47,825 nt of DNA from an uncultured Eubacteriales bacterium (GTDB taxonomy: Bacteria; Bacillota; Clostridia; Oscillospirales; Acutalibacteraceae), in NCBI GenBank assembly GCA_900315875.1, contig ONAX01000004.1, positions 1 to 47,825 on the forward strand. Direction: 5' to 3'. The position numbers and the translations under genes were made by a program. Below the pieces are notes generated by a model that did not search any database, was not told where the DNA came from, and was given only the letters and a program-made list of their open reading frames with translations. Every line of letters starts with the position of its first letter. Within the stretch, counting starts at the first letter, position 1. Positions 21,411-38,601 of this stretch are shown here, piece by piece.

Positions 21411-21797
21411 TTATTTTTTTGTATAGGTTTCAAGGTGTCTGCAAAGTGCATCGAAAGTCTCGGAACTGATATCGTGCTCAATTTTGCATGCATCTTCTGC
21501 TGCAATATCTTCCGGAACGCCAAGGCGGACAAAAAGCTCAGTCAGGGTATTATGACGGGCATAAATTTTTTCAGCTATCTTTAATCCGCTTTCCGTAATG
21601 GTTATATAATTGTCCTTGTCCATTGTAATATAACCTTTTTCTTTCAGGCGTTTAGTAGTATATGTAACACTCGGCTTTGTTATGCCCAGTTGACGAGCTA
21701 CATCAACTGATCTGACCTCTCCGTTTTTATTTTTTATTATTAGCATTGCTTCAAGATAATCTTCGGTTGTTTTTTCTGAATTGATGTCAGGTCTCAT
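21411..21797 (-). CDS. DtxR-family metal-dependent repressor
   Basis: This 128-residue protein has the winged helix (SVDVARQLGITKPSVTYTTKRLKEKGYI) and the dimer/metal domain of the DtxR/MntR family, but no SH3-like C-terminal domain. The predicted metal ligands are D13 and E16 in TEDYLEAM, H82 in ARHNTL, and C104, E107, H108 in ACKIEHDIS. The C-x2-E-H set is the iron-type pattern of DtxR/IdeR, while Asp at the first position is MntR-like, so the metal preference is mixed. It is encoded next to the iron and redox operons and likely represses them through TTAG-N6-CTAA sites. GGAGGAGG lies ahead of its ATG. Confidence 0.92.
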   Translation of the reverse strand: MRPDINSEKTTEDYLEAMLIIKNKNGEVRSVDVARQLGITKPSVTYTTKRLKEKGYITMDKDNYITITESGLKIAEKIYARHNTLTELFVRLGVPEDIAAEDACKIEHDISSETFDALCRHLETYTKK

Positions 21798-22718: not shown

Positions 22719-23417
22719 ATGTCGAAAAATCGTCAGAAGCAAATGTCGGAATCCTTCATACTGGGAATCATCCTGTCTGTTGTCGGAGGTTATTTCGACG
22801 CCTATACATATATAGCACGCGACGGTGTGTTTGCAAATGCGCAGACCGGAAATGTCGTTCTGTTTGGTATTTCGCTTGCATCAGGAGATGTTCTCCGCGC
22901 CCTTCGATATGTTCCGCCGATAATAGCGTTTTTGCTCGGCGTATTTCTTGCAGAATACTTCCGCCGCCATAACGGCATGGCAAAACTGCACTGGCGTCAG
23001 CATGTTATCCTGATTGAACTCGGAATAATACTGCTTGTAACCCTCCTTCCTTCAGGTAAGATTGACGGGGTGAATTTCGACCTTATTTCAAATGTACTGA
23101 TTTCCTTTGCATGCTCTCTGCAGGTTCAGTCATTCCGCAGAATACGCGGTATTACCTGCGCTACTACAATGTGTACCGGAAATATGCGCAGTGCGGCAGA
23201 GAATATGACGCGCTATGTTACAGAGCGCGATCCCAAGCTTCTGCATTCTGCAGGAAAGTATCTCGGCATTATAGGATTTTTCGTGGTAGGAGCTGTTATC
23301 AGCACCGTTATTACAAGGCTAATAGGCACATATGCCGTGGCGTTTACCGCTGCGGGTCTGCTGGCAGTATTCTTTATGATGTTTGCAAAGCCTGTCAATG
23401 CGGAGGATGACGACTGA
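22719..23417 (+). CDS. DUF1275 (YoaK) family membrane protein
   Basis: This 232-residue protein matches DUF1275: GGYFDAYTYIARDGVFANAQTGNVVLFGI near the start is the family hallmark, followed by helices and SFRRIRGITCATTMCTGNMR. Six or seven helices are predicted. The family is described as a putative membrane transporter or permease but has no settled substrate. It starts behind AGGAG at 22706-22710. The TAC-N5-GTA array begins 5 bp after its stop codon. Confidence 0.88.
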   Translation: MSKNRQKQMSESFILGIILSVVGGYFDAYTYIARDGVFANAQTGNVVLFGISLASGDVLRALRYVPPIIAFLLGVFLAEYFRRHNGMAKLHWRQHVILIELGIILLVTLLPSGKIDGVNFDLISNVLISFACSLQVQSFRRIRGITCATTMCTGNMRSAAENMTRYVTERDPKLLHSAGKYLGIIGFFVVGAVISTVITRLIGTYAVAFTAAGLLAVFFMMFAKPVNAEDDD

Positions 23418-23421
23418 ACAA

Positions 23422-23897
23422 TACGAACTGTACTTTATTTATATAATATACAATTAGTAAAATAGAAAGTGTATCATAATGCAACTAAAATACGAAAAGT
23501 ATAAAATGTATATGATATACATAATGTAAAATACAATTTGTAATATTATTAATATATAATACAATACGTTATATACAAAATGTATAATATACATATAGTA
23601 GTTATAAATAGCTGCTTGTAATTATACTAAATGTAATAGTATACTGATAGTAGTATACTATCGGTAGAAATATACAAATGGTATTATACGAATGGTAAAG
23701 ATATACAGGGGGTATTATACTCAATGTAGATATATACAAATAGTAATATACTAATAGTAAATAATTACAAATGGTAGAATACGCATTGTATAATATAACA
23801 AATAGTATACTACAGACAGTATATAAATACAGAATATATAATACGAAATGTAAAATAATAATAAAATATAACAATATGTATATTGATACAACCCTAT
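23422..23897. repeat. Array of TAC-N5-GTA dyads with alternating 17/14-bp spacing
   Basis: The gap between DUF1275 and the next gene is filled by an 11-bp dyad, TAC-N5-GTA. In the core, 15 consecutive units start at 23625, 642, 656, 673, 687, 704, 718, 735, 749, 766, 780, 797, 811, 828 and 842. The intervals are 17,14,17,14 and so on without exception, a 31-bp superperiod or about three helical turns. Thirteen of the 15 match both triplets; 797 begins AAC and 828 ends ATA. The N5 sequence varies freely (for example aaatg, gaatg, agggg, tcaat). Outer units such as 23422, 449, 491, 518, 532, 574, 590 and 870 keep the dyad but lose strict spacing. Confidence 0.85.
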
Positions 23898-23951
23898 CAA
23901 AACTGTAAACTACTTTTCGACATTATGAGAGCATTTATTTCAAATTTGTTG

Positions 23952-23980
23952 TTGATTATTTCTATGTTTCGTTGTACAAT
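23952..23980 (+). promoter_or_regulatory. Promoter of the 24012 gene
   Basis: TTGATT at 23952-23957 and TACAAT at 23975-23980 with a 17-bp spacer, directly after the dyad array. Confidence 0.55.
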
Positions 23981-24011
23981 GTACTAAAAAAGAAAAGGAA
24001 GGTGCTATGCC

Positions 24012-24941
24012 ATGAAAAATGCAAAAGCAAACACTACCGAAGAATTTGCCCGCACTCAGGGCTATCTTGCGGCGAAAAAAGCAATGACAAAGCAGTCTGC
24101 GCTCGTAATGGTTGCGTCCTCTGCTGCTCTGACGTTATTTTTCCTTATGAGGATAATCGTAGCATCCGCCACTGGTAAAAAAGACGCGATATTCGCTTGT
24201 TTTTACTACTTTATGGGCGACAATTCCGTCCCCTTTATCAATCTTGGTGCCGGACTTCTGATTTTTATCTTCATGTTCATGACCACATGTGCTCTTATCG
24301 GTACATACCTCGGCGCTAAGGGCGACGACCGTGACAAGGTTCATAACGGACTGAGCTTTCTGCAGGGAACACTCGGATATGCGCTCGTGCTCACATTCGT
24401 ATTTATCCTTATTTCTCTTTGCTCGGTATCAGTAATGTATCAGGCTTCGCGTATTGAGCATCTTAAATCGTATTCTACTGTCGGTGGAGTAAATCACGGC
24501 TGGCTGTTTTTCGATACCTTTGTATTCGGTGTAATTTTTGTTACTACAATCATCTGCCTGCTGCGCTATGTTTCTTCTCTCAAGAAGGCAACCGACGGCA
24601 TCTGCCTGAACACCAACGGAACTATTGTTACAATAGTAGTATCCTTTGTATGTGCACTTGTGTTCTTCGTTGCATTCTTCATTTCACTTGGCAACCTTGT
24701 AATGCCGATCGATGTCGGTGAAACTATCCAGTTCTCCTATGTCGGAGCTGCTGCTGCCGATGTTCTGATTACAGCTGCAATCACAACGATTGCCGCATGC
24801 ACCGGCTTTATTACAATCAGCTATCACGCAGGAGTTTCCGAGGTTTCGAGAATGGTAAATGCAAGCTACTACAGAGCTGCTGCAGGATATGCCGGTTCTA
24901 AGACTGTCAATACGACCGCAGAGGATGTTACCAAGGAATAA
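24012..24941 (+). CDS. Polytopic membrane protein, unknown family
   Basis: I do not recognise this 309-residue protein. It has a hydrophilic N-terminus of about 30 residues and six predicted membrane helices (about 30-50, 75-98, 112-140, 160-182, 203-228, 240-265), then a Ser/Thr/Asp-rich tail. The loop AKGDDRDKVHNGL and the segment ISYHAGVSEVSRMVNASYYRAAAG stand out. It uses C/T-rich favoured codons, suggesting fair expression. ATG 24012 follows GGAAGG. It heads a three-gene block of envelope proteins lying between two TAC-N5-GTA arrays. Confidence 0.75.
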   Translation: MKNAKANTTEEFARTQGYLAAKKAMTKQSALVMVASSAALTLFFLMRIIVASATGKKDAIFACFYYFMGDNSVPFINLGAGLLIFIFMFMTTCALIGTYLGAKGDDRDKVHNGLSFLQGTLGYALVLTFVFILISLCSVSVMYQASRIEHLKSYSTVGGVNHGWLFFDTFVFGVIFVTTIICLLRYVSSLKKATDGICLNTNGTIVTIVVSFVCALVFFVAFFISLGNLVMPIDVGETIQFSYVGAAAADVLITAAITTIAACTGFITISYHAGVSEVSRMVNASYYRAAAGYAGSKTVNTTAEDVTKE

Positions 24942-26180: not shown

Positions 26181-26711
26181 ATGAAAAAAATATTACTAAT
26201 TGTATTATCACTTGCACTTGTGCTCAGCTTTTCCGGCTGTTTAGGCGCAGGCGGCAATAAGCTGGAGGGCATCAGCTTGAGCGATGCATCAGAGGTTTCC
26301 GGCGTGACTGACGATAAATATGACAACGACCTCAAGGGACTTGAAAAATATCTCATTGACCTGAAGTACATTCCCGAAAAGGCAGTTGCTACCGAGATGA
26401 TGAGCGCAGTAATCGGTGCCGAAAAGGGTGACAGATACAACTACAACATCGATTCAAGTTCTGTTTATGTTGAGCTTTATGAATATGATATTAATAATCT
26501 TAACAGCGATGCAAAGCGAGTTATCGGAGAGATCAAGGAAACGGGCAGCTTCCATGTTTTCGACAGTAATTCTGATCAGGATGTTATTGCGGCTGAACTG
26601 TCCTATAACGGTAAGTATCTTCTCATTTATACCGGCGGCGACGGCAATGACGATCTGAAGCAGCGCAAGTCGGATTTCACTAAGGCAGTAAAAGAATTTC
26701 ATAAGGGTTAA
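26181..26711 (+). CDS. Lipoprotein of unknown function
   Basis: This 176-residue protein has a clear lipoprotein signal, MKKILLIVLSLALVLSFSGC, with Cys 20 as the acylation site. The mature part is small, acidic and mixed alpha/beta, with KGLEKYLIDLKYIP, AEMMSAVIG-like and LSYNGKYLLIYTGGDGND phrases. It resembles DUF4358-type lipoproteins in size and in the pairing of a conserved early IGA/EKG stretch with a late LLIYTG, but I cannot confirm the family. Good ribosome site (GGGAGG), own promoter and terminator. Confidence 0.75.
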   Translation: MKKILLIVLSLALVLSFSGCLGAGGNKLEGISLSDASEVSGVTDDKYDNDLKGLEKYLIDLKYIPEKAVATEMMSAVIGAEKGDRYNYNIDSSSVYVELYEYDINNLNSDAKRVIGEIKETGSFHVFDSNSDQDVIAAELSYNGKYLLIYTGGDGNDDLKQRKSDFTKAVKEFHKG

Positions 26712-26716
26712 AACAT

Positions 26717-26746
26717 AACCGTCGGATATGTTCCGACGGTTTTCTT
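26717..26746 (+). terminator. Intrinsic terminator after the lipoprotein gene
   Basis: CCGTCGGA (26719-26726) and TCCGACGG (26732-26739) are perfect complements followed by TTTTC. Confidence 0.85.
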
Positions 26747-26749
26747 TTA

Positions 26750-27083
26750 AACTAATAGTATATAAAAAAGTATACATGATATAGATATCAACAAATAGTA
26801 GTAAATACAGATAGTATATCATAATATACTATATACTATATGTAATTTATGCTGTATAATACAGTGGAATTATACGAAAAGTATATAAACGTATTGTATA
26901 TAATATAATAAATTCTACTATATGTTTGTATAATATTTAGAAATAATACAAAACGTATAAATAATGGCTAATAGAGCTACAAAAAGTATATAATCAATAT
27001 ATAGTACAATCTGTATAATACTATTTGTTTATTGCAAAAGCAGTATACAAAGAGTATTACCAAATGATTTATTACAAATAGTT
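26750..27083. repeat. Second, degenerate TAC-N5-GTA array
   Basis: The same dyad recurs with full or near matches starting at 26750 (AAC), 773, 790 (AAC), 806, 834, 873, 888 (AAC), 916, 947, 978, 27005, 27019, 27046, 27058 and 27073. Intervals of 14, 17 and 31 bp recur (773-790, 916-947, 947-978, 27005-27019), but the strict alternation of the first array is blurred by indels. It fills the gap after the lipoprotein terminator, so this family of repeats is dispersed. The rest of the gap to 27320 shows nothing definite. Confidence 0.7.
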
Positions 27084-27324
27084 GTTATTATTATTTCTGG
27101 ACCGTTTTGATTTGCGTCAAGAATTTAAAAAGACGTTATGAAAGTAAATATATGATGTTATGCTTACATCAAGATTCAGCAAATAAACATGAATAATCAG
27201 ATGTTCCCACAGATATTCTGCAATGGTGTTGCGTCTCGTTTGATAAAAGCACACATCAGAGTAACACAATCGTACATTTTCTTTGTAAATGAAATAATGG
27301 TGTAATGTTACACCGGAGTTTTGA

Positions 27325-27353
27325 TTGACAAGAATGTTTATTTGAAGTATACT
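27325..27353 (+). promoter_or_regulatory. Strong promoter of the repeat-domain secreted protein
   Basis: TTGACA at 27325-27330 and TATACT at 27348-27353 with 17-bp spacing; the start codon is 40 bp downstream behind GGGAGG. Confidence 0.7.
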
Positions 27354-27393
27354 TATACAAAGGTTTTGTCTAAACTAAAAGGGAGGCAGTGTT

Positions 27394-28639: not shown

Positions 28640-28677
28640 TATTGCTTTTAGGGGTATAAGTGAAAGGGGGTGTGAGC

Positions 28678-29154
28678 TTGAACACAAACAAAGAGGGGCT
28701 CACAGCAAGGGAAAAACGATTCTGTGCGGCTATGGCGGATGGTTCCAACGTTCGAGAGGCTGCAAGGGCGGCAGGTTACAGTCAGCCGGATCGTGCCGGC
28801 GCGGAGCTTATGCTCAGGCAGGATATTGCCGCGGAGCTGGACGCGCGTTTTGCCGCACGGGCAAAGAATTGCCGCAGAATGGCTCTTGCAGGGTATGAAA
28901 GGCTTGCGTTCGGCAGTGTTTCCGACGCGGTGCGGCTGATGTTTGAGGAGGACCCGCTGGGCGGCGGCTTTTCGGGGTACGACCTTTTCAATGTTTCGGA
29001 AATACGCAGACCTAAGGACGGCGCGATGGAGATAAAATTCTTCGACAGGATTCGCGCCCTTGAAAAGCTGGAGGCTGCAGTTGACGACAGCGAAACAAGG
29101 CTTGCAGATTTCTATTCGGCACTTATGAAAAGCGGAGAGGAGAGGGATAATTGA
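28678..29154 (+). CDS. Phage terminase small subunit
   Basis: A TTG start at 28678 behind AAAGGGGG is most likely; GTG 28660 and 28672 are too early or overlap the ribosome site. The 158-residue product has the Terminase_2 N-terminus LTAREKRFCAAMADGSNVREAARAAGY with its helix-turn-helix, then a basic helical region and an acidic C-terminus with DSETRLADFYSAL. It would recognise the packaging site and hand DNA to the large subunit. It is first in a run of 17 tightly packed genes on one strand, and overlaps the next gene. Confidence 0.85.
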   Translation: MNTNKEGLTAREKRFCAAMADGSNVREAARAAGYSQPDRAGAELMLRQDIAAELDARFAARAKNCRRMALAGYERLAFGSVSDAVRLMFEEDPLGGGFSGYDLFNVSEIRRPKDGAMEIKFFDRIRALEKLEAAVDDSETRLADFYSALMKSGEERDN

Positions 29155-30404
29155 AATTTACTTCTTTTTCTGAAAAACAACTGCAGCTTCTCAGCTGGTG
29201 GTGCCGCGACGGCAGTGATGACGGAATAATCTGTGACGGCGCAGTGCGAAGCGGCAAAACGCTTTGCATGAGCGTATCATTTGTAAGCTGGGCTATGGCA
29301 TGCTTCGACGGCGGCAGCTTCGCTGTCTGCGGAAAGACAATCCGCTCGGTGCGTCGGAATCTTGTGGTGCCGCTGCTTTCAGTGATAAGGAGTATCGGCT
29401 TCAAAGCTGAGGAAAAACCATCGTCGAATATTATTTATATATCCGGCGGCGGACGTACAAACACCTTTTACCTTTTCGGCGGCAGAGATGAGGGCTCGGC
29501 TGCTCTTATCCAGGGCATGACTCTGTGCGGAGTGATGTTTGACGAAGCTGCGCTTATGCCGAGAAGTTTTGTTGAGCAGGCAGTTGCGCGCTGCTCTGTG
29601 GAGGGCTCCAAGATGTGGTTCAACTGTAACCCGGAATATCCGCAGCACTGGTTCAACCTTGAGTGGATAAAAAAGGCAAATGAAAAAAACCTTTTGTACA
29701 TGCGCTTTCGCATGGAGGATAACCCTTCTTTGTCGCAGTCCATGATTGACAGATACAAAAAGCTGTATTCCGGGTCCTTTTACAGAAGGTACGTGCTGGG
29801 AGAATGGGCGGCGACCGAAGGACTGGTTTACCCCTTTATGTCGGAGGATGGAATGTACTGCGACGTGCCGGCCGGCGGTTTTGAGGAATATGTCATCTCA
29901 TGTGACTACGGCACCGTAAACCCGTCCTCCTTCGGACTGTGGGGATTGCAGTGCGGCGTTTGGTACAGGATAGACGAATATTACTACAGCTCGCGAAGGG
30001 AGGGCTTTTCCCGAACGGATGAGGAGCACTATGCGGGGCTTGAGGCGCTCGCTGGCGACAGGGATATAACCTGTGTCATAGTTGACCCGTCGGCTGCAAG
30101 CTTTATCGAGGTAATACGCCGTCACGGGAAGTTCGATGTCATGCCGGCAAAGAACAATGTTATCGACGGCATACGTCAGGTCAGTACGGCGCTTAAGGAA
30201 GGGCGGCTCAGGATATGCCGCAGCTGCAGCGACTGCAGAAGAGAATTCGGTCTTTACCGGTGGGAAAGCAGCGGACGTGATGCTCCGCGCAAGGAGGATG
30301 ACCATGCAATGGACGATGTGAGGTATTTTACGGCAACATATCTTACGGGCAGCGGCGACGAAATATTCGCAGTTGCCCTTGACAGGCAGGAGGTGATTTA
30401 TTGA
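29151..30404 (+). CDS. Phage terminase large subunit (PBSX type)
   Basis: It starts at TTG 29151, overlapping the preceding stop, behind GGAGAGG. The 417 residues contain the ATPase Walker A-like GAVRSGKTLCMS near 27, Walker B CGVMFDEAALM near 127 and coupling motif NCNPEYPQHWF. The C-terminal RNase H-like nuclease shows its acidic residues in SCDYGTVNPSS, VIVDPSA and HAMDDVRYF. All needed catalytic residues appear intact, so DNA packaging activity is plausible. It matches PBSX-like terminases in length and order. Confidence 0.93.
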   Translation: MKFTSFSEKQLQLLSWWCRDGSDDGIICDGAVRSGKTLCMSVSFVSWAMACFDGGSFAVCGKTIRSVRRNLVVPLLSVIRSIGFKAEEKPSSNIIYISGGGRTNTFYLFGGRDEGSAALIQGMTLCGVMFDEAALMPRSFVEQAVARCSVEGSKMWFNCNPEYPQHWFNLEWIKKANEKNLLYMRFRMEDNPSLSQSMIDRYKKLYSGSFYRRYVLGEWAATEGLVYPFMSEDGMYCDVPAGGFEEYVISCDYGTVNPSSFGLWGLQCGVWYRIDEYYYSSRREGFSRTDEEHYAGLEALAGDRDITCVIVDPSAASFIEVIRRHGKFDVMPAKNNVIDGIRQVSTALKEGRLRICRSCSDCRREFGLYRWESSGRDAPRKEDDHAMDDVRYFTATYLTGSGDEIFAVALDRQEVIY

Positions 30405-31531
30405 AATTGTTCGGGAAAAAGAAGGACAGTGCCGCGCCTGCACTGCAGACGGCGGACGGCAGGGAGCGTTTTATTCCAGGCCAGCTCAAGGATGCATATG
30501 CCGGCGGCTGCGAGCGCAGGCTATACCGCAGTCTGAGAGAATCCATCCCTGTTATCGACGCTGCTATCTATAAGATAGTGCGGCTGACGGGCGGCTTTTC
30601 GGTTGAATGCAGCAACAGCAACGCACAGGCGATGATGGACAGCTTTGTGTCGGATGTGAATGTAAACGGAATATCCTCGGGACTTGAAAGCTTTATCGCG
30701 GAGTATCTGGAGCAGCTTCTGACCTACGGAACGGCGGTCGGCGAAATGCTTGTCGGCAGCGGTGGTATCTGCGGTCTTTACAACAGCTCGCTTGATTATG
30801 TCGGGATAGAGATGGGCGAGGACCCGCTGCAGCTTAAAATATTCGCCCTCAACGGGCTTGGCGGCAAAAGAGAGGTAGAATATCCGGAGCTTGTTCTGTG
30901 CAGCGCTATCATGCCGGAGCCGGGCAGGCTGTACGGCACATCCATTCTGCGAGGACTGCCCTTTGTCAGCGATATTCTTATGAAAATACTGACGGCAGTC
31001 GGCAATAACTGGGACAGGATAGGAAACGTCCGCTTTGCAGTGACCTACAAGCCCGGCGAAAACGAAAGGAGCTTTTCAAAGGACAGGGCTATGCAGATAG
31101 CCTCGGAATGGACAAAGGCTATGAAAAGCCGTGAGCCGAAAGATTTTGTGGCAGTGGGGGATGTAAGCATACATGCCATCGGTGCGGACAACATTGTCCC
31201 CGACTCATCCGTCCCGGTGCGGCAGATACTGGAGCAGATAACGGCGAAGCTTTCCATACCGCCGTTCCTGCTGGGATTATCGTGGTCTACCACGGAGCGC
31301 ATGTCCTCTCAGCAGAGCGACATGCTGACAAGCGAGCTTGAATATTACCGCAGGATACTGGGAGGAGTTATTCGCAGGATTTGCCGTATGCAGCTCAAGC
31401 TTTCGGGATTTGGCGGAACGTGCCGCGTAAAGTGGGACAATATTAACCTGCAGGACGAAGTCGAGCTTGCAAAGGCAAGACTTTACAATGCGCAGGCTGA
31501 GGAAACAGAAAACAGAACAAGAAAGGAATGA
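30401..31531 (+). CDS. Phage portal protein
   Basis: It starts at TTG 30401 with a 4-bp overlap. The 376-residue protein fits an HK97/PBSX-type portal: a basic N-terminus, RSLRESIPVIDAAIYKIVRL, then the wing/crown core with YGTAVGEMLV and LYGTSILRGL, then the stem-like FLLGLSWSTTERMSSQQ and a long C-terminal helix with WDNINLQDEVELAKARLYNAQAEE. It would form the dodecameric DNA entry ring. Length is at the low end for the family but no gap is obvious. Confidence 0.88.
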   Translation: MKLFGKKKDSAAPALQTADGRERFIPGQLKDAYAGGCERRLYRSLRESIPVIDAAIYKIVRLTGGFSVECSNSNAQAMMDSFVSDVNVNGISSGLESFIAEYLEQLLTYGTAVGEMLVGSGGICGLYNSSLDYVGIEMGEDPLQLKIFALNGLGGKREVEYPELVLCSAIMPEPGRLYGTSILRGLPFVSDILMKILTAVGNNWDRIGNVRFAVTYKPGENERSFSKDRAMQIASEWTKAMKSREPKDFVAVGDVSIHAIGADNIVPDSSVPVRQILEQITAKLSIPPFLLGLSWSTTERMSSQQSDMLTSELEYYRRILGGVIRRICRMQLKLSGFGGTCRVKWDNINLQDEVELAKARLYNAQAEETENRTRKE

Positions 31532-31535
31532 TAAT

Positions 31536-32483
31536 GTGACAGAAGCTGCAAAGGCTTTGAAGGAAGGCGAGCTTGAACTGATCAATCAGTACACTCGTCA
31601 GGAGCTGAATGAGGACGAGGTATATGCCTTTTCCATCGTTCTGTGCGACAATGAAATCGACAGGGACAGCGAGCGCTTTTCGGTGCAGTCGCTGCAAAAG
31701 CTCAGCGAGCTTTTTGTTGGTGTTACGGGTCTTTATGACCACGAGGTAAAAAGCGAAAACCAGAGTGCGAGGATCTTCTCCTGTAAGGTGGAAAATACCG
31801 GCGGCGAAACCTCGGACGGTCTGCCGTATGTCAGACTTACCGCGCGTGCCTATACTCCGAAAAACGACTTCACCATGCCGTTTATCAAGGCAGTTGAAAG
31901 CGGTATGAAAAAGGAGGTCAGCGTAAGCTGCTCCGTCAGGCACAGGGTGTGCTCGATATGCTCTGAGGATATCGGAGTCTGCGGCCATATCAAGGGAAGA
32001 AGCTACGACGGCAGAAACTGTTTTGCAACACTTGAGGAGCCGACGGATGCCTATGAATGGTCTTTTGTCGCAGTGCCTGCCCAGAAATCGGCGGGCGTAA
32101 TAAAAAGCTACAGAAAAAAGGGTGATGAAATGGATATAGAAAAGAGGATATTTGAGGGTACGGCGCAGAGCTTTACCGCGGACGAAATGAATGTCCTGGC
32201 GGAAAGAATACGCATACTGACAGAAAAGGCGGCGGACGGCGATGCTTACAGACAGCGCCTCACGCAGGATATAAGCCGTGCGGCGGCAATTGCACTGCCG
32301 GAGCTGCCGGAGGCGACCCTCGGATTCATAACGAAAAATATGAATGCAAAGCGCCTGGAGGAGCTGCACAAGGCGCTGGCGGCGAAGGCTGAAAAAAGCG
32401 TTCCCGTTCTGTCCCAGCTCAGACCGAAAAGCACCGCTGCAGACGGCGGTACTGGAAAAAACAATATCTATAAGGAAATTTAA
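31536..32483 (+). CDS. Fused prohead protease and scaffold
   Basis: GTG 31536 behind AAAGGA, four bases after the portal stop, is the best start. The 315-residue protein has an N-terminal prohead protease-like domain with candidate catalytic His in GLYDHEVKS and Ser in KKEVSVSCSV, and a Cys-rich insertion CSICSEDIGVCGHIKG that may bind metal. The C-terminal 100 residues are helical and charged (ADEMNVLAERIRILTEKAADG), as in scaffolds. The arrangement equals PBSX XkdF. It would guide capsid assembly and then be cut away. Confidence 0.75.
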   Translation: MTEAAKALKEGELELINQYTRQELNEDEVYAFSIVLCDNEIDRDSERFSVQSLQKLSELFVGVTGLYDHEVKSENQSARIFSCKVENTGGETSDGLPYVRLTARAYTPKNDFTMPFIKAVESGMKKEVSVSCSVRHRVCSICSEDIGVCGHIKGRSYDGRNCFATLEEPTDAYEWSFVAVPAQKSAGVIKSYRKKGDEMDIEKRIFEGTAQSFTADEMNVLAERIRILTEKAADGDAYRQRLTQDISRAAAIALPELPEATLGFITKNMNAKRLEELHKALAAKAEKSVPVLSQLRPKSTAADGGTGKNNIYKEI

Positions 32484-32495
32484 GGAGGAAATATC

Positions 32496-32828
32496 ATGAA
32501 TGTATCTTTTAACGGCTTCGGCGAAAATGTAGCAACCTTTGAAATGGCTGCAAACGTAGAGAAGGGAGTTCCGGTAATGATTACCGACAACGGCAAGGTC
32601 AGTCTTTCTACAGGTCCTTTCTGCGGCGTTTGCGTTGGAACAAGAAACGGCTTTGCAGCGGTTCAGCTTACGGGCTACGTCAGACTGCCCTATACTACCG
32701 CGCCGTCTATCGGCTACAGCAAGATTTCCGTTTCCGGCGGTAAGATCACCGCGGACAACTCTACCGGCAGGGAATACCTTATCGTTGATCTTGACACCAC
32801 AAACAAAATTGCAGGCATTATGCTTTGA
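32496..32828 (+). CDS. Capsid decoration protein, DUF2190-like
   Basis: This 110-residue, beta-rich protein starts behind GGAGG and lies between the protease/scaffold and the major capsid genes. NVEKGVPVMITDNGKVSLS and FCGVCVGTRNGFAAVQLTGYV resemble the DUF2190 / head-fibre decoration proteins that bind the capsid surface. It has no membrane segment. Codons here and in the capsid gene are more biased to C-ending forms than in the other phage genes, fitting high-copy structural products. Confidence 0.65.
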   Translation: MNVSFNGFGENVATFEMAANVEKGVPVMITDNGKVSLSTGPFCGVCVGTRNGFAAVQLTGYVRLPYTTAPSIGYSKISVSGGKITADNSTGREYLIVDLDTTNKIAGIML

Positions 32829-32843
32829 TAGGAGGAAATGAAT

Positions 32844-33830
32844 ATGGCATATTTTGATAATATCAGACTTGAAAAGGGTATGTACGGCACAGGCCGTTCG
32901 TTTACACAGGTGCTCGAACAGCTCGACCCCTCGGAAAACTACAAAAATACCGAGCTTGACGGGCTGGACGCATACCAGCGCCAGCTCAAGCGCTTTGACA
33001 TAAAGGTCAGCGGCGAAAACTCCGACTGCGTGCAGAAGTTCTTCCAGACCTCTGACAGTGCGGCGCTTTTCCCTGAATATGTGAGCAGGACTGTTAGACA
33101 GGGAATGGAAAGAGAAAACATCCTCGGCGACATTCTCGCAGCAAAGACAATTATCGATGGTACCGATTACCGCTCTGTTGTATCAGACCCCACCGAGGAC
33201 GAAAAGAAGCTCGTTCCCGTTGCAGAGGGTGCGTTCCTTCCGCAGACAAGGGTGAGAACAAGCGAAAACCTTGTAAAGCTCAATAAGAGGGGCAGAATGC
33301 TTGTTGCATCCTATGAAGCGGTGAAATTCCAGAAGCTTGATCTTTTCACCGTTACCCTCAGACAGATCGGTGCATATATCGCCCGCCAGCAGCTTTCGGA
33401 CGCGGTGGCTGTGCTTGTGGACGGCGCGGAGAATATCACAAAGAGCGGCGCGGCCCTTGCATATTCCGATCTTCTTGAGCTGTGGGGTGCAATCTCTCCT
33501 TATGAGCTCAACACCATTCTTGCGCCGACTGACGGCATGACAAAGCTGCTTTCCATGAGCCAGCTTCAGGACAGCATCGCCGGTCAGGATTTCCATGCAA
33601 GCGGCAAGATGGTAACGCCTCTGGGCGCAAAGCTTCTGCATGCTCCGTCTGCTCAGTCAGGCAAGCTTATTGCCCTTGACAAGAACTGCGCTCTTGAAAT
33701 GGTGCAGTCCGGCGGCGTTGTCACTGATTACGACAAGCTTATCGACAGACAGCTCGAAAGAGCCGGAATCAGCGTTATAGCAGGCTTTACAAAGCTGTTC
33801 CCCTCTGCAGTAAAGACTCTTACATACTAA
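32844..33830 (+). CDS. Major capsid protein
   Basis: ATG 32844 lies eight bases after GGAGG; ATG 32838 is too close. The 328-residue product fits a PBSX XkdG-like, HK97-fold major capsid protein: LFPEYVSRTVRQGM in the N-terminal third, LVPVAEGAFLPQTRVRTSENLVKLNKRGRM in the E-loop/P-domain region, and a C-terminal GISVIAGFTKLFPSAVKTL. Long alpha-helical segments such as DLFTVTLRQIGAYIARQQL support the fold. It is encoded just behind the decoration gene. No frameshift or stop is seen. Confidence 0.85.
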   Translation: MAYFDNIRLEKGMYGTGRSFTQVLEQLDPSENYKNTELDGLDAYQRQLKRFDIKVSGENSDCVQKFFQTSDSAALFPEYVSRTVRQGMERENILGDILAAKTIIDGTDYRSVVSDPTEDEKKLVPVAEGAFLPQTRVRTSENLVKLNKRGRMLVASYEAVKFQKLDLFTVTLRQIGAYIARQQLSDAVAVLVDGAENITKSGAALAYSDLLELWGAISPYELNTILAPTDGMTKLLSMSQLQDSIAGQDFHASGKMVTPLGAKLLHAPSAQSGKLIALDKNCALEMVQSGGVVTDYDKLIDRQLERAGISVIAGFTKLFPSAVKTLTY

Positions 33831-33842
33831 GGAGGAGACCGG

Positions 33843-34214
33843 GTGGACAGAGAGAATGTTTTTGAGCTCTTCTGCCGACTGACCGGTCTTGGCACAAGCG
33901 AAGCTGAAAGCCTTGTGTTTTTATGCGATACGGCGTGCGACTATGTGCTGTCACGCATCAGAAATGATGCGGACATCAATGCGGCAGGCGATTCTCTTGA
34001 GCTTGCCGCGGCGTCGCTCGCCTACTATCGCTTTGTGCTATGGAGCGTAACGGACGGTTCGGTAGGTGACATCAGAGTGGGAGATATCAGCGTTAAGGCT
34101 TCCGGGATAAATGCTGTTGCCGCTGCGGAAAAGCTCTGCAGGGGAGCCTTCGACAGCGCAGCGGCTTACCTTGAGGATGAAGGCTTTGTATTCGGAGGAA
34201 TACCCTATGAATAA
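33843..34214 (+). CDS. Head-tail connector (neck) protein
   Basis: It starts at GTG 33843 behind GGAGGAG. The 123-residue, helix-rich protein opens with DRENVFELFCRLTGLGTSEAE and has a middle helix SLELAAASLAYYRFVLWS, typical of gp6/DNA-packaging-type connectors that sit under the portal. Position directly after the major capsid gene matches PBSX XkdH. It overlaps the next gene by eight bases. Confidence 0.6.
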   Translation: MDRENVFELFCRLTGLGTSEAESLVFLCDTACDYVLSRIRNDADINAAGDSLELAAASLAYYRFVLWSVTDGSVGDIRVGDISVKASGINAVAAAEKLCRGAFDSAAAYLEDEGFVFGGIPYE

Positions 34215-34545
34215 TTACTGCGAAAGGGCTATAAGAACCCTTGGAGTTCCGATAAGTGTGACAACTCCGCAGGGGACAGCGGAAGGCTTCGGCGTGATAA
34301 TGCCATCGAGAAATAAATCCAGAAATAACGGAGGTATTTCGGTCGGCTGTGCCGGTGTGTCGGAGCCTCAGCGCTTTTCGATGATTTCAGAGTCCGGCGT
34401 GGCTTCCGGCATGCGCTACGGTGACCGGGTCAGCGACGGCGAAAATGAATACTATGTACTGTGGACTGACAGTGTAGAGGGTCGTTTCGGCAGCTACGCA
34501 AAGACAGAAATGCAGCTTATGAGAGAGGGGAGAACAGATGAATAG
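34207..34545 (+). CDS. Head closure (stopper) protein
   Basis: The start is ATG 34207; the frame is open further upstream but lies inside the connector gene. The 112-residue protein is beta-rich (GFGVIMPSRNKS, YGDRVSDGENEYYVLW) and ends with charged residues, like XkdI/gp16-type head-completion proteins. It overlaps both neighbours, so translation is coupled. The assignment is by position and composition. Confidence 0.5.
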   Translation: MNNYCERAIRTLGVPISVTTPQGTAEGFGVIMPSRNKSRNNGGISVGCAGVSEPQRFSMISESGVASGMRYGDRVSDGENEYYVLWTDSVEGRFGSYAKTEMQLMREGRTDE

Positions 34546-34933
34546 CTCGCAGATAATGAAAAACGGGCTTATCAGCGGCGGTGAGCTTGATGATATGGTG
34601 CTTATAGATGCAGGTGACGGCAGAATACTGCCTTATCCGCTCGATGGCGCCTATGCCGTGTTTTCTGACGGCAGCGCGGGTGCTGATTTTCTTTTGGGGT
34701 CGGATGAAATACTGTGCAGCGAAACTGTAGAGGTCAGGGTTTATGTCCCGGAGAGTTCGACTGCTCAGCAGTGCCGCGAATATTCAAAAAGACTGTGTCT
34801 TGCAGCGGCGCAGGCTGACGAGGGACGGCACATCAGCTCAATATCAGTGTCAAAGTGCAGCTTTAATGAGCCTTACCGCGCCTGGGAGGATGTCATTGTC
34901 TTTTCTCTCGTGCAGTCGCTGCAGCAGGAGTGA
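34538..34933 (+). CDS. Tail terminator-like neck protein
   Basis: This 131-residue protein follows the closure gene with an 8-bp overlap. It contains GDGRILPYPLDGAYAVFSDG, then EILCSETVEVRVYVPESSTAQQCREY and a C-terminal EDVIVFSLVQSL. Mixed alpha/beta structure and place before a tube-like gene match tail terminators or XkdJ-type proteins. In PBSX the next genes are the sheath (XkdK) and tube (XkdM); no sheath gene follows here. Confidence 0.45.
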   Translation: MNSSQIMKNGLISGGELDDMVLIDAGDGRILPYPLDGAYAVFSDGSAGADFLLGSDEILCSETVEVRVYVPESSTAQQCREYSKRLCLAAAQADEGRHISSISVSKCSFNEPYRAWEDVIVFSLVQSLQQE

Positions 34934-34956
34934 ATTTTTTTGAAGGGAGTGGTCGG

Positions 34957-35340
34957 ATGAGCAGTGCTGAAATAATCAGCGCAAGAAATGTACAGGTGAA
35001 AATAGACGGCGCAGCACTGTTTCAGGCGGAATGCCTTGAAATACGCAGACTGTGTGAGCTTCACCCGGTGCGTGCGGTCTTTGTCAGCGATGATATTGCC
35101 CATATCAGAAAAAACAGCCGATATAAGGCTAATCTCAGCGGTCTGCGTTTCAGGCAGCCGTATGAAAACATATCCTTCGCCGACCTGGATAATTTTACCC
35201 TGACGGCGGAGATTGACGGAAAAAGGATAATACTGTCCAGCTGCATGTGGGATGATTTTCTCGCAGCGGCTGACAGGGAAAAATTCAGGGAGCGCATAAG
35301 CGTAACAGCGCTTTCAATGGAAACGGAGGATGTGCAGTGA
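34957..35340 (+). CDS. Tail tube-like protein
   Basis: ATG 34957 behind GAAGGGAG is chosen over the GTG at 34930, which overlaps the upstream stop. The 127-residue product has NVQVKIDGAALFQAECLEIRR, then NLSGLRFRQPYENISFADLDNFTLTAEIDGKR and ILSSCMWDDFL, the alternation seen in small tube and tube-initiator proteins (beta strand, loop with F-rich turn, DNFTL strand, Cys-Trp strand). I regard tube or tube initiator as likely but not proven. It would be the only tube protein in the cluster. Confidence 0.45.
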   Translation: MSSAEIISARNVQVKIDGAALFQAECLEIRRLCELHPVRAVFVSDDIAHIRKNSRYKANLSGLRFRQPYENISFADLDNFTLTAEIDGKRIILSSCMWDDFLAAADREKFRERISVTALSMETEDVQ

Positions 35341-35480
35341 AGGAAAATGCTGAGGCATTGATGCCGGAAAGGGATGACGACGACGCAGGCATACTCAGGG
35401 AAATGTCAGAGCTTATAAGAGATGACATGCTGAGGTATCCGCGCCTGCTTGATGCAGAGGAGGAAAGCAATGAGATGTGA
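35337..35480 (+). CDS. Small acidic 47-residue phage protein
   Basis: GTG 35337 overlaps the stop of the tube-like gene and lies seven bases after GGAGGA; the frame ends at TGA 35478. The peptide is acidic (ERDDDDAGILREMSELIRDD) and helical, ending DAEEESNEM. It occupies the slot where tail assembly chaperone and tape measure genes normally stand. It overlaps the next gene by 11 bp. I do not recognise a family; it may be a small chaperone-like remnant. Confidence 0.6.
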   Translation: MKENAEALMPERDDDDAGILREMSELIRDDMLRYPRLLDAEEESNEM

Positions 35481-35991
35481 CGGAAAAATGAGCTACAAGG
35501 ATTTTATATTTCCCGTTAATCCGCGGACTATAACGATACGGACGGACAGGCATGTTGCCCTGTCCGCTGTACCTGGGGGCTCCGATGTTGTAAGCGATCT
35601 CGGCAGCGGCGCAAGGATAGTGAGCGGCGAGGGTGAATTCTTCGGCGAGGGTGCCGTACAGAGCTTTTTAAGACTGCGGCAGGTTATGAATTCTGGCGGC
35701 GGCGGTATGCTGTACATACCGTCGCAAAGTCCGATATTTGCAGTGGCAAAAAAGCTTGTGTTTGATGCAGTGGATGCTGAGGGCGTCGTGCACTACAGTT
35801 TTGAATTTGTCGAAAGCTTTGATAAAAGCCGCGGCGGCAGTGCAGCGGCTCTCTACGGGGACGGAAAAAAGACTCTTTGGGATATATCCTATGAAAGCAG
35901 AGTCAATATAAATGTGCTGGTGCAGAAAAACAGACACATCAGACGACCGGATGTGCCTGTAATGCCGTGGGAGAGGGTGGTGTTGTGCTGA
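35470..35991 (+). CDS. Baseplate/tail-tip protein, XkdP-like position
   Basis: ATG 35470 follows GGAGGAAAG inside the preceding small gene. The 173-residue protein begins MSYKDFIFPVNPRTITIRTD, has SGEGEFFGEGAVQSFLRLRQVM and GGGGMLYIPSQSPIFAVAKKLVFDA, then VHYSFEFVES. This resembles the N-terminal domain of XkdP/DNA-circularisation-type baseplate proteins, which connect tube to hub. The C-terminal LysM common in XkdP is missing; instead it ends VQKNRHIRRPDVPVMPWERV, a short LysM-like leftover. Confidence 0.5.
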   Translation: MRCDGKMSYKDFIFPVNPRTITIRTDRHVALSAVPGGSDVVSDLGSGARIVSGEGEFFGEGAVQSFLRLRQVMNSGGGGMLYIPSQSPIFAVAKKLVFDAVDAEGVVHYSFEFVESFDKSRGGSAAALYGDGKKTLWDISYESRVNINVLVQKNRHIRRPDVPVMPWERVVLC

Positions 35992-36935
35992 GCTTTGAGG
36001 TGTGTGATATTTCCGGCAGAGTGACACAGTTCAGACATCCTCTGCGGATGAGTATGGTATCCTCGCAGGACGCTCCGGCAGACAGTCTTACGGCTGTTTT
36101 CGGCATCACGGGCAGGGTCCCGGTGCTCAGCAGCATAAGAGTGAACCTTGACGGGGAACTACTCTTTTTCGGCTATGTGGATGAGCAGAGCGAAAGCCTT
36201 ACAAAAAACGGCAGACTGCTGCAGATACGGGCACGAAGTCCGGAAGCGGTGCTGCTTGATAACGAGGCAAGACCGCAGCAGTATTTCATGCCGTCGATGC
36301 CGCTTTTTATGGAAAGGCATTTTGAGCCTCTCGGCTTTACCGGATTTATCGGCAGCAGCCAGCCATTTAACGGTGAGCTGTCGATAAGCAAGGGCGAAAG
36401 CGAATGGCAGGTGCTGTGTTCGTTCTGCGAAAAGTTTCTGAGAGTAACGCCGAAAATACGTGAAAACGGCATTATTGACGTCAGCGGAAATGACAGCGGA
36501 AAGACAGTCATAATCGGCAGTTCACACGACATACTGTCGGTGAAATATACGCTCAAAAGAAGCCGCATTATTTCGGATATCTATGCGCGTACATACGCTA
36601 AGGGCGGCTATGAAATGCATATGGAAAGCACCGCGGCAAAATCACTCGGTGTAAAAAGGACGCGATACGTCAATACCCTTGCAAGCAAAACGCGCAGCCC
36701 CTCGGATACGGAAAAGATTATTCCGCACTCGGAAGCAGCGGCATATCGCTGCGAGCTGACCGTCTCAGGCAGTGTTCCGTGCAGCGTAGGCGACGAGATT
36801 ATTCTTGAGGGCAAAGCGCAGCACATGAAGGTTATCGAGGTGCACCATACATTTTCTGAAAGCGGAGAAAGGACGAGGATATTTACGGAGGTGACTGAGC
36901 ATGTGGATTGGCAGGAATATGGCAAACGACAATAA
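35985..36935 (+). CDS. Baseplate hub protein (XkdQ/gpD-like)
   Basis: GTG 35985 after GAGAGGGTGG is the likely start. The 316-residue protein fits hub proteins of the gp27/late control D family: SFEVCDISGRVTQFRHPLRMSM at the start, DGELLFFGYVDEQSESL, a middle region with SKGESEWQVLCSFCEKFLRVTP, and a C-terminal GDEIILEGKAQHMKVIEVHHTF. The hub trimer links the tube to the spike. It overlaps both neighbouring genes. Confidence 0.8.
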   Translation: MLSFEVCDISGRVTQFRHPLRMSMVSSQDAPADSLTAVFGITGRVPVLSSIRVNLDGELLFFGYVDEQSESLTKNGRLLQIRARSPEAVLLDNEARPQQYFMPSMPLFMERHFEPLGFTGFIGSSQPFNGELSISKGESEWQVLCSFCEKFLRVTPKIRENGIIDVSGNDSGKTVIIGSSHDILSVKYTLKRSRIISDIYARTYAKGGYEMHMESTAAKSLGVKRTRYVNTLASKTRSPSDTEKIIPHSEAAAYRCELTVSGSVPCSVGDEIILEGKAQHMKVIEVHHTFSESGERTRIFTEVTEHVDWQEYGKRQ

Positions 36936-37236
36936 GCCCGACGCGGTGACAACGGGAGGAGTAAACTGCTCCGCCGACAGAAGGCTTTCAGCAAGCTCGC
37001 AAAACGGAAGGAGTCAGTATGCTATTGTTTCCCCTGCCGGAATAATAAGCTCGCCGGCGTCGGGTGCGGATGCGGTCGTTATCGAAACATCATCGGGGCA
37101 GCTTTGCCTGGGCGTTGTTACGCCGTACCATGGATTTGATGTAAGTCCGGGGGAGATTGCTCTGTGGTCGGACGGCGGAGCTGTGCTTAAGCTCGCAAAC
37201 GACGGGAAAATATATGCAAACGGAAGGGAGATATGA
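36901..37236 (+). CDS. Baseplate spike protein (Mu gp45/gpV-like)
   Basis: ATG 36901 follows GGAGGTGA and overlaps the hub gene by 35 bp. The 111-residue product has QYAIVSPAGIISSPASGADAVVI, GVVTPYHGFDVSPGEIALWSDGGA and KLANDGKIYANGREI, the OB-fold plus start of a beta helix seen in Mu gp45/P2 gpV spikes. The trimeric beta helix is very short, so the spike tip must be small. No metal-binding HxH tip motif is seen. Confidence 0.75.
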   Translation: MWIGRNMANDNKPDAVTTGGVNCSADRRLSASSQNGRSQYAIVSPAGIISSPASGADAVVIETSSGQLCLGVVTPYHGFDVSPGEIALWSDGGAVLKLANDGKIYANGREI

Positions 37237-37237
37237 A

Positions 37238-37555
37238 ATGGATACCGCACTTGATATTTCAGGAAACTACAAAACCGATGACGCCGGTTATCCGTACATG
37301 ACAGACGGCAGACCGGAGGTAATGCAGCAGGCATATATCCTGCTGACAGCCGGACTGGGCGGATTTATTTATGACAGGGAGCTTGGAATCGCTCACTATG
37401 AAACTGAAGCCCAGCTTGAAGCTGCAGCAAGGGATGCTCTGCGTGAAATACCTGAGCTTGAGATTACCGGAGTCGCCATTACTCCGGAAAAGACATCGGT
37501 AACTGTGCTTTTCAGCGGAGTGGAATCGGAGATAATTGTAAGGAGGGATGAGTAA
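37238..37555 (+). CDS. Baseplate protein, gp25/Mu gp46-like (XkdS)
   Basis: ATG 37238 follows GGAAGGGAG. The 105-residue protein has DGRPEVMQQAYILLTAGLGGFIYDRELGI and EAAARDALREIPELEITGVAI, the wedge protein pattern of gp46/gp25-like families. It contributes to the baseplate wedge together with the J-like protein, whose gene overlaps by one base (TAATG). Confidence 0.75.
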   Translation: MDTALDISGNYKTDDAGYPYMTDGRPEVMQQAYILLTAGLGGFIYDRELGIAHYETEAQLEAAARDALREIPELEITGVAITPEKTSVTVLFSGVESEIIVRRDE

Positions 37556-38601
37556 TGGATAGCTATGAGAAAATACTTATCAGAATGGAGGATAAGTATT
37601 TTGCGCTGACCGGTATTGAACCGGAGCGCGCAAGTGATACGGATATAAAGCTTAAGCTGCTTGCAGGGGAACTGTTCAGCCTTAATACACAGATAGACTG
37701 GCTGCGCCGACAGCTATTGCCGGACACTGCTACAGGCGAGCAGCTCGATGCACACGCCGGACAGTGCGGCATTACCAGAAGAGCCGGCAACAAGGCGGTG
37801 GGGGATATTTCCTTTGCGGTGGATGTTCCGCTTGAATTCAACGTTACTATCCCTGCAGGAACGATATGCACTACTTCGGACGGTGCGCTGAATTATGTTA
37901 CGATGCAGGATGTTGTGATTCGACGCGGAGAATCATTCGCTCTGGTTTCTGCACAGGCTCAGCGCAGCGGTAAGCAGTATAATGTATCTCCGGGAAAGAT
38001 CACGACGATAGTTACATATTTTTCCGTGGGACTCAGTATTTCAAATACTTCTGCCTTTTCCGGCGGAACGGACGACGAGGACGACGAATCGCTGAGGAAA
38101 AGACTGTTTCAGAGCTATGGCAAGATTTCGAACGGTGCAAACAAGGCTTATTATGAAAAGCTTGCTGAGAGCGTCGATGGAGTCGGATCTGCGCATATCG
38201 CAGGAATCGGAAACTCCTGGTATTTGTATATTGCAGGAGTAGGAGGAACAGCGCCGGCATCTGCAATGCAGCGTGTGAGATCATTGATAAGTGAAAATCT
38301 TGTTGCAGGAATGAGCTGTAACTTTTCAAACTGTCCGCTCGTTAATTCTGATATTGTTGTGGAAGTTAAGCCGGCGTCGGGTTATACCTTCGCTGATGTG
38401 TCCGGCAGAGTGACGCAGTCTATCAACGAATACTATAATTCTCTGCGGATAGGTCAGAAAATGACGCTGGCAGCTCTTGGAGGTGCTGTTATCGCAACCC
38501 CCGGAGTAGAAAACTATACATTTACAAGCGGTACTGACAAAAATCCGGGCAGCAATGGTCTTGTGGTTCTGCAAAGCCTGACAGTTAACGAACAAAGCTG
38601 A
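37555..38601 (+). CDS. Baseplate J-like protein (Mu gp47, XkdT)
   Basis: This 348-residue protein is a full-length baseplate J family member: DIKLKLLAGELFSLNTQIDWLRRQLLPDTATGEQLDAHAGQCGI, the typical FNVTIPAGTICTT and GTDDEDDESLRKRLFQSYGKISNGANKAYYEKLAESVDGVG. It ends with the wedge domain FADVSGRVTQSINEYYNSL. It is the central wedge component of contractile-tail and related baseplates, so its presence with no sheath gene nearby is notable. Confidence 0.9.
   Translation: MDSYEKILIRMEDKYFALTGIEPERASDTDIKLKLLAGELFSLNTQIDWLRRQLLPDTATGEQLDAHAGQCGITRRAGNKAVGDISFAVDVPLEFNVTIPAGTICTTSDGALNYVTMQDVVIRRGESFALVSAQAQRSGKQYNVSPGKITTIVTYFSVGLSISNTSAFSGGTDDEDDESLRKRLFQSYGKISNGANKAYYEKLAESVDGVGSAHIAGIGNSWYLYIAGVGGTAPASAMQRVRSLISENLVAGMSCNFSNCPLVNSDIVVEVKPASGYTFADVSGRVTQSINEYYNSLRIGQKMTLAALGGAVIATPGVENYTFTSGTDKNPGSNGLVVLQSLTVNEQS

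Follow-up and report, generated by a model that had tools for sequence, protein, structure and literature searches.

The window, i.e., the whole stretch of 47,825 nucleotides analysed here, carries two intergenic arrays of TAC-N5-GTA dyads, and a DNA-binding protein probably coats such stretches. At the level of the sequence, these arrays display dyad symmetry, a spacing grammar, intergenic placement and recurrence in related species. We have high confidence that they would be protein arrays and low confidence in a role as hubs that coat DNA or organise the chromosome; for the two taken jointly, i.e., a protein array on double-stranded DNA with a coating or organising role, our estimate is roughly 55%. 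The features of the window to which the text refers are the following.

23625..23852, no strand assigned: core array, 15 TAC-N5-GTA registers alternating by 17 and 14 bp, 13 exact and 2 with one mismatch.
23422..23600, no strand assigned: array extension, exact sites at 23422, 23449, 23491, 23518, 23532, 23574 and 23590.
26750..27083, no strand assigned: second array, of looser spacing, whose 7 exact sites lie between 26806 and 27056.
22719..23417, plus strand: upstream gene encoding a DUF1275 protein, adjoining the gap of the core array.
24012..24941, plus strand: downstream gene encoding a 309-aa protein with no Pfam or NCBIfam match.
23952..23980, plus strand: promoter-like TTGATT-17-TACAAT between the core array and gene 24012, agreeing with the consensus at 9 of 12 bases.
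26717..26741, plus strand: terminator-like hairpin that follows gene 26181-26711 and immediately precedes the second array.
27325..27353, plus strand: promoter-like TTGACA-17-TATACT between the second array and gene 27394, agreeing with the consensus at 11 of 12 bases.

The host, a rumen-type bacterium akin to Ruminococcus, has a genome of 2.26 Mb in 104 contigs that is 98.5% complete. The intergenic gap 23418-24011 holds 20 exact TAC-N5-GTA sites (23422-23852), the first of which begins after the four bases that follow the stop codon of the DUF1275 gene. A preliminary description of this DNA had the coordinates, the motif and the exact 17/14 alternating register right, as confirmed by re-reading the sequence and by shuffles. 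The fifteen units that it counted include 13 exact ones and two with one mismatch, at 23797 (AAC...GTA) and 23828 (TAC...ATA), and the extent that it gave, 23625-23852, is correct for the core but is part of the larger array of 20 exact sites. Successive exact sites of the extension are 27, 42, 27, 14, 42 and 16 bp apart. In the second array, the exact sites follow each other at 28, 39, 74, 31, 27 and 41 bp, and sites with one mismatch are found in and around it (e.g., at 26750, 26790, 27019 and 27073). The window also encodes an MntR/DtxR-like metal regulator (21411-21797, minus strand), 1.6 kb from the array, and a prophage-like block (28660-38601, GC about 0.51) with small and large terminase, a PF25209 capsid protein and Baseplate_J.

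Chance in AT-rich DNA could produce dyads and the gap is indeed 78% AT, but the probability of this explanation is negligible. When the gap was shuffled 10,000 times with dinucleotides preserved, 0.70 sites were expected (sd 0.83, maximum 6) and the longest run of alternating 14/17 intervals never exceeded one, against 20 sites and a run of 10 in the real sequence; chance is thus refuted, the shuffles never reaching either value. The preliminary description had named recurrence of the alternation in shuffled AT-rich DNA as one outcome that would speak against it, and it did not recur. Among the 64 palindromic triplets combined with 11 gap lengths (0-10), TAC-N5-GTA is the top motif of this gap (20, the next reaching 11). 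The whole window contains 39 sites when 5.73 are expected (100 shuffles, largest 12), and the second gap, 26712-27393, contains 7 when 0.47 are expected (3,000 shuffles, maximum 4), TAT-N5-ATA and ATA-N1-TAT (8 each) being more numerous there. Furthermore, the same spacing grammar is found in other assemblies. In the 2.26 Mb of the own genome, 19 of the 20 site pairs at 14-31 bp fall in the two gaps (reversed control, 3), and over 53 kb of off-array DNA the motif stays at background (10 for 8.3 expected).

The anatomy of the sites was established on 310 sites from 49 clusters in 36 loci, sites within one array and in orthologous arrays not being mutually independent. The fuller consensus reads ATAC-N-R-N-Y-N-GTAT, with A before TAC and T after GTA. 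Mirrored columns agree over the 310 sites (N2: A174, C8, G42, T86; mirror of N4: A185, C9, G46, T70), the purine at N2 and the pyrimidine at N4 are equally frequent, and the consensus is strand-symmetric. One exception to this symmetry is the core array of the window, which by eye is A-rich on the plus strand. The symmetry persists once arrays are oriented along the sense strand of a neighbouring gene, which points to double-stranded DNA as the recognised form.

The distances between sites follow a grammar with peaks at 14, 16-17, 27-28, 30-31, 41, 45, 62, 76 and 93 bp, distances of 9-13 and 19-26 bp being nearly missing. An interval of 14-15 bp directly follows another one only once, for 10.9 expected (sd 2.4), and alternation of 14-15 with 16-18 bp is seen 66 times, for 41.4 expected (sd 4.0). 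Of the 105 sites that come next after a 14-bp pair, 64 are 16-17 bp away and 23 are 27-28 bp away, i.e., one extra helical turn. The composite palindrome of 25 bp pointed out in the preliminary description, in which two dyads stand 14 bp apart, is indeed a recurring unit across arrays. Loci for the unit counts were hand-picked to avoid duplicates, sister-species arrays at one locus being retained. Successive 14-bp pairs are 30 (5 cases), 31 (9), 41 (5) or 61, 79, 93, 123 and 124 bp (1 each) apart. All but the 79-bp distance, i.e., 23 of 24, are near whole helical turns, with a phase coherence of 0.91 at 10.3 bp, a reading made on the same 24 distances that suggested it. When the 969 site-to-site distances are all taken into a periodogram, its maximum is at 15.6 bp and 10.2-10.6 bp shows no peak, which speaks against a simple helical reading.

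These regularities could be explained if a single homodimeric DNA-binding protein recognised the array as double-stranded DNA. Each dyad would bind one dimer, and two dyads 14 bp apart would form a dimer-of-dimers unit. With a usual step of 30-31 bp (three helical turns) or 41 bp (four), units would share one face of the helix. They would fill the intergenic gap cooperatively, through a rigid contact at 14 bp and another one that keeps the helical phase between pairs. We infer the homodimer, its pairing at 14 bp and its cooperative binding from site symmetry and spacing. An array of sites for a dimeric protein had already been proposed in the preliminary description; dyad symmetry supports it, as do the near-whole-turn distances of 14-bp pairs, which dimers that cooperate would be expected to show. 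Two candidates were considered and set aside. Xre genes occur inside two of the array-bearing loci (L130 and L137) and were not seen in most loci. An MTRETAKK/R protein, for one member of which Pfam gives no match, is acidic as judged by eye; this conserved protein of 103-105 aa is encoded in the recQ-alkD-ABC operon of many members of the genus (L133:4223-4537 and homologues).

Selection could instead act on RNA hairpins or DNA cruciforms, an explanation that we consider very improbable. The transcript of the core does fold at -57.1 kcal/mol, versus -34.7 in dinucleotide shuffles (z -6.8), and shuffling the non-motif bases gives a mean z of -1.47 over 37 arrays, 11 of them below -2. However, with N5 words and linkers resampled from real arrays, the mean z becomes +0.30 and none of 25 arrays falls below -2, so that the folding signal is a by-product of the palindromic consensus. 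Moreover, complementary pairs are not in excess (N1-N5, 101 vs. 113; N2-N4, 125 vs. 130; -2/+2, 133 vs. 154), and the -1/+1 pair is non-independent but deviates away from complementarity (148 vs. 175). Strand-symmetric sites lacking pairing covariation thus argue for a protein on double-stranded DNA rather than for RNA. A known RNA family was ruled out, Rfam giving 0 matches in the window at the gathering score.

The genome scan advocated in the preliminary description shows, besides the concentration of site pairs in two gaps of the own genome, phased arrays in related genomes. A pattern of three sites, with a first interval of 14 bp and a second of 16 or 17 bp, is present in 13 of 64 genus genomes (reversed control, 0 of 64) and was found in 0 of 199 other genomes sampled from the family and 0 of 393 others sampled from the order, each of these draws including one further member of the genus. 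In most of the 13 genomes, matches to the strict pattern lie on one or two contigs. In the genome_contigs collection, scanned for intervals of 14 and then 17 bp, 20 stretches have three phased sites, 18 of them in records titled Ruminococcus, Ruminococcaceae, Oscillospiraceae, Clostridiales or Clostridia; in the other two (Pedobacter and Acidobacteriaceae), the clusters consist of just the three searched sites. With a less strict pattern of site pairs, many genus genomes have more matches than with the control. Since some have no such excess (G031, 98% complete, 6 vs. 9 in the control; G025, 5 vs. 10), the system is not general in the genus.

The arrays studied lie in intergenic gaps. Their outer site is at most 15 bp from a stop codon, and sometimes immediately after it, in 15 of 26 clusters, as a raw count (clusters of at least three sites from L042, L044-L060 and the window); for one of the 15, the stop codon lies in the overlapping locus L105. 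Open reading frames were called mechanically; recQ, lepA, atpG, atpD, prfC, tatD and the ABC genes were named by eye from translations, and the identity of alkD relies on Pfam for one member. The recQ-alkD-ABC operon harbours arrays in several consecutive gaps and in several species. One of them (L133:3658-3822, G012 C45) alternates 27 and 14 bp, with a superperiod of 41 bp. Elsewhere, five site pairs of 16-17 bp recur every 56-60 bp upstream of a gene that looks tatD-like by eye (L131:245-501, G007 C49).

An alkD match was obtained in 56 of the 61 genomes searched. Among the best 30 of these 56 loci, four or more sites are present in 15 and no more than one in 11, all sites of the examined stretch being counted, coding or noncoding; the total reaches 189 sites, against 3 to 52 for four control motifs. 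The own genome carries the same operon without one site. On an alkD tree of 28 rows, presence or absence of the array requires 9 changes, versus 9.7 for shuffled labels, and supported branches impose at least four of them. The tree is based on one gene and many of its forks are weak; from it, G027, G010 and G017 were dropped, the open reading frame filter leaving them without an alkD frame. As judged from sequence comparison, the presence of the array thus varies at the same locus among relatives. Five further species have a four-site array between atpG and atpD, which is their sole place matching the strict pattern; one of these loci (L054) has a second, looser cluster too.

This distribution bears on whether the arrays are ordinary multi-site operators, through which a lineage-specific repressor or activator would control the adjacent genes, i.e., 24012 and 27394 in the window. 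It is a tentative reading, to which we give a minor share of the probability; the same holds for its extension to other loci, where the targets would be the recQ-alkD-ABC operon, atpD and a nicotinate phosphoribosyltransferase gene. Promoter-like matches do lie between both arrays of the window and their downstream genes, although matches as good as the 9/12 element at 23952..23980 occur 12 times in the window versus 6.5 in shuffles, which makes that element weak, and those of the type of 27325..27353 occur 8 times versus 6.4. The recQ-alkD neighbourhood recurs, as does atpG-atpD in its five species, and an array precedes a nicotinate phosphoribosyltransferase gene in two loci (L022, identified by Pfam, and L048, by eye). 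However, the array of the window does not follow gene 24012. The product of this gene has matches in 25 of 64 genus genomes, its own included, and in the examined stretch of the 24 others (weakest E-value 9.6e-4; some loci cut by contig ends) there are never more than two noncoding sites. In the same way, the operon without sites in the own genome argues against operators, and the flanking genes share no nameable function. Furthermore, some loci such as L060 are filled with sites from a stop codon to a few bases before the next mechanically called start, which would leave little room for a promoter.

A nucleoprotein hub, which would coat or silence intergenic DNA or organise the chromosome, is favoured over control of one conserved gene, since the genes next to the arrays change from species to species and a single locus may have or lack an array among relatives. 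Against such a hub, the recurrence at recQ-alkD and atpG-atpD could reflect gene-specific regulation, and both arrays of the window have an operator-like layout upstream of promoter-like matches; these observations would suit an operator function. A more specific version of the hub, which we advance as a speculation with well under even odds, would be a chromosomal hub in which a lineage-specific dimer reads 14-bp pairs every three or four turns and covers the intergenic gaps at a few places per genome, the arrays moving between loci with their geometry fixed.

The scattered presence at the alkD locus, with about as many changes as for shuffled labels, would also suit a repeat that propagates by copying, either selfish or relic, of the satellite or MITE type. 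Tandem Repeats Finder indeed reports periods of 62 bp (76% matches) and 93 bp (79%) besides 31 bp (66%) in the array of the window, and N5 words are more alike within arrays (2.14 of 5 identical bases) than between them (2.01), an excess of 3.4 shuffle sd that may reflect some copying. However, this difference is slight and it is mainly the triplets and spacings that are kept, as the preliminary description had perceived when it noted that the N5 bases vary. N5 identity by lag in the window does not rise above shuffles (lowest p 0.07), and the array has no match in the phage collection and matches only two plasmid records, over 13% of the query. Spread by copying therefore seems distinctly improbable, and a simple tandem repeat appears disfavoured by the same sequence data.

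A phage origin found no support, the window array matching nothing in the phage collection. Three pattern scans of viral_contigs returned 2, 3 and 11 stretches; exact sites were tabulated for all 16, and open reading frames were inspected in L061, L062, L218, L220 and L224. Of the three contigs read around their sites, L217 carries a tandem direct repeat and L218 and L220 are related phages. The latter two contain near-identical repeat copies with TACTAATAGTA-like sites (L218:3150-3290 and L220:4460-4610), which in L220 lie upstream of a gene that is terminase-like by eye.

Another possibility is a centromere-like partition or chromosome-anchoring site bound by a ParB- or ParR-like protein. 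The own genome does have one region of many phased sites, and strict-pattern matches lie on one or two contigs in most of the 13 genus genomes. Moreover, an Enterococcus hirae plasmid (NZ_CP042292.1, L225:3504-3703) has a partition locus with TACAAATAGTA dyads every 16 bp before parA-like and DUF5388 genes, arranged as four exact, two degenerate and again four exact dyads, possibly a variant form of iteron. Single TAC-N5-GTA sites (1 to 4) occur upstream of parA in four related plasmids. However, parA-like and DUF5388-like genes were not found: tblastn of both proteins against 1.01 Mb of partly overlapping fetched loci and the window gave no hit at E<=1, while the control query gave 66. GC skew keeps its sign across the window, where no origin or terminus signal was seen. 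The position of the arrays also varies between species and their lability (at least four forced changes on the alkD tree) fits poorly with a partition site, which we regard as unlikely.

The plasmid loci with parA and DUF5388 genes are presumably of the pAD1 type; in one record, the protein on the DUF5388 side is named RepC. The E. hirae member resembles the arrays described here by its dyads upstream of a parA-like gene, whereas three of its four relatives (L226, L227 and L229) show head-to-tail TAGTA repeats, mostly with an 8-bp period, that are seen neither in L228 nor in L225 and are not alternating dyads. The gap of the window contains 8 TAGTA, none of them 8 bp apart. The match of the window array to two plasmid records, which led to the E. 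hirae plasmid, is weak (81% over 75 bp), and two other arrays have no plasmid match. Since the fetched loci contain no parA or DUF5388 genes, the likeness to these plasmids is an analogy rather than membership; with the 8-bp TAGTA repeats missing too, assignment to pAD1-type partition systems was rejected.

Intergenic repeated dyads or protein-bound repeats are represented by BIME/REP, matS/MatP and parC/ParR. Unlike the arrays described here, REP has a longer conserved unit, matS sites are single and scattered, and parC has its cognate gene adjacent. Literature searches, mostly narrow, returned no description of such an array.

Several known systems nevertheless share part of its grammar. The K-boxes of ComK in Bacillus (PMC3536758) consist of two N5 dyads placed by helical turns, a one-face placement resembling that of the 14-bp pairs (23 of 24 distances); each K-box has two AAAA-N5-TTTT boxes, whereas the half-sites here are TAC and GTA and an array has up to 20 sites. 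DitR, a TetR-family regulator of Stenotrophomonas maltophilia inferred to be a homodimer, has the operator CATAC-N5-GTATG, with three likely sites in one promoter and footprinted boxes (PMC9342713). It offers a precedent for TAC-N5-GTA as the core of a dimer site, and the ATAC-N5-GTAT palindrome of DitR-type TetR operators is present in the arrays. The DitR operator differs by belonging to one promoter of another bacterium and by its flanking C/G, instead of A/T.

The CopR-CopY/BlaI/MecI operators also have TACA/TGTA half-sites read by a homodimer, and the operator TACANNTGTA (TACA-N2-TGTA) leaves a gap of 4 bp between TAC and GTA versus 5 here (PMC7253601). PF03965 (CopY/BlaI) has a match in 20 of 64 genus genomes at E<=0.001 and none in the own genome (G000) or in the array-bearing G005, G012 and G605. 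An array of CopY/BlaI operators was thus rejected, on gap length and on the lack of a PF03965 match in the own genome. The Helicobacter pylori methylation motif RTAY-N5-RTAY includes a string like TAC-N5-GTA (PMC12679398) and is not the same motif as the dyad.

The cis-code of these arrays is unusually clean, with mainly six bases per site and the distances kept while the remainder drifts. The quaternary structure of the putative binder would be partly readable from DNA alone, and the array could serve as a direct bait for it. Should this protein organise the chromosome, it would so far be known from the Ruminococcus-like group, with binding regions that turn over quickly.
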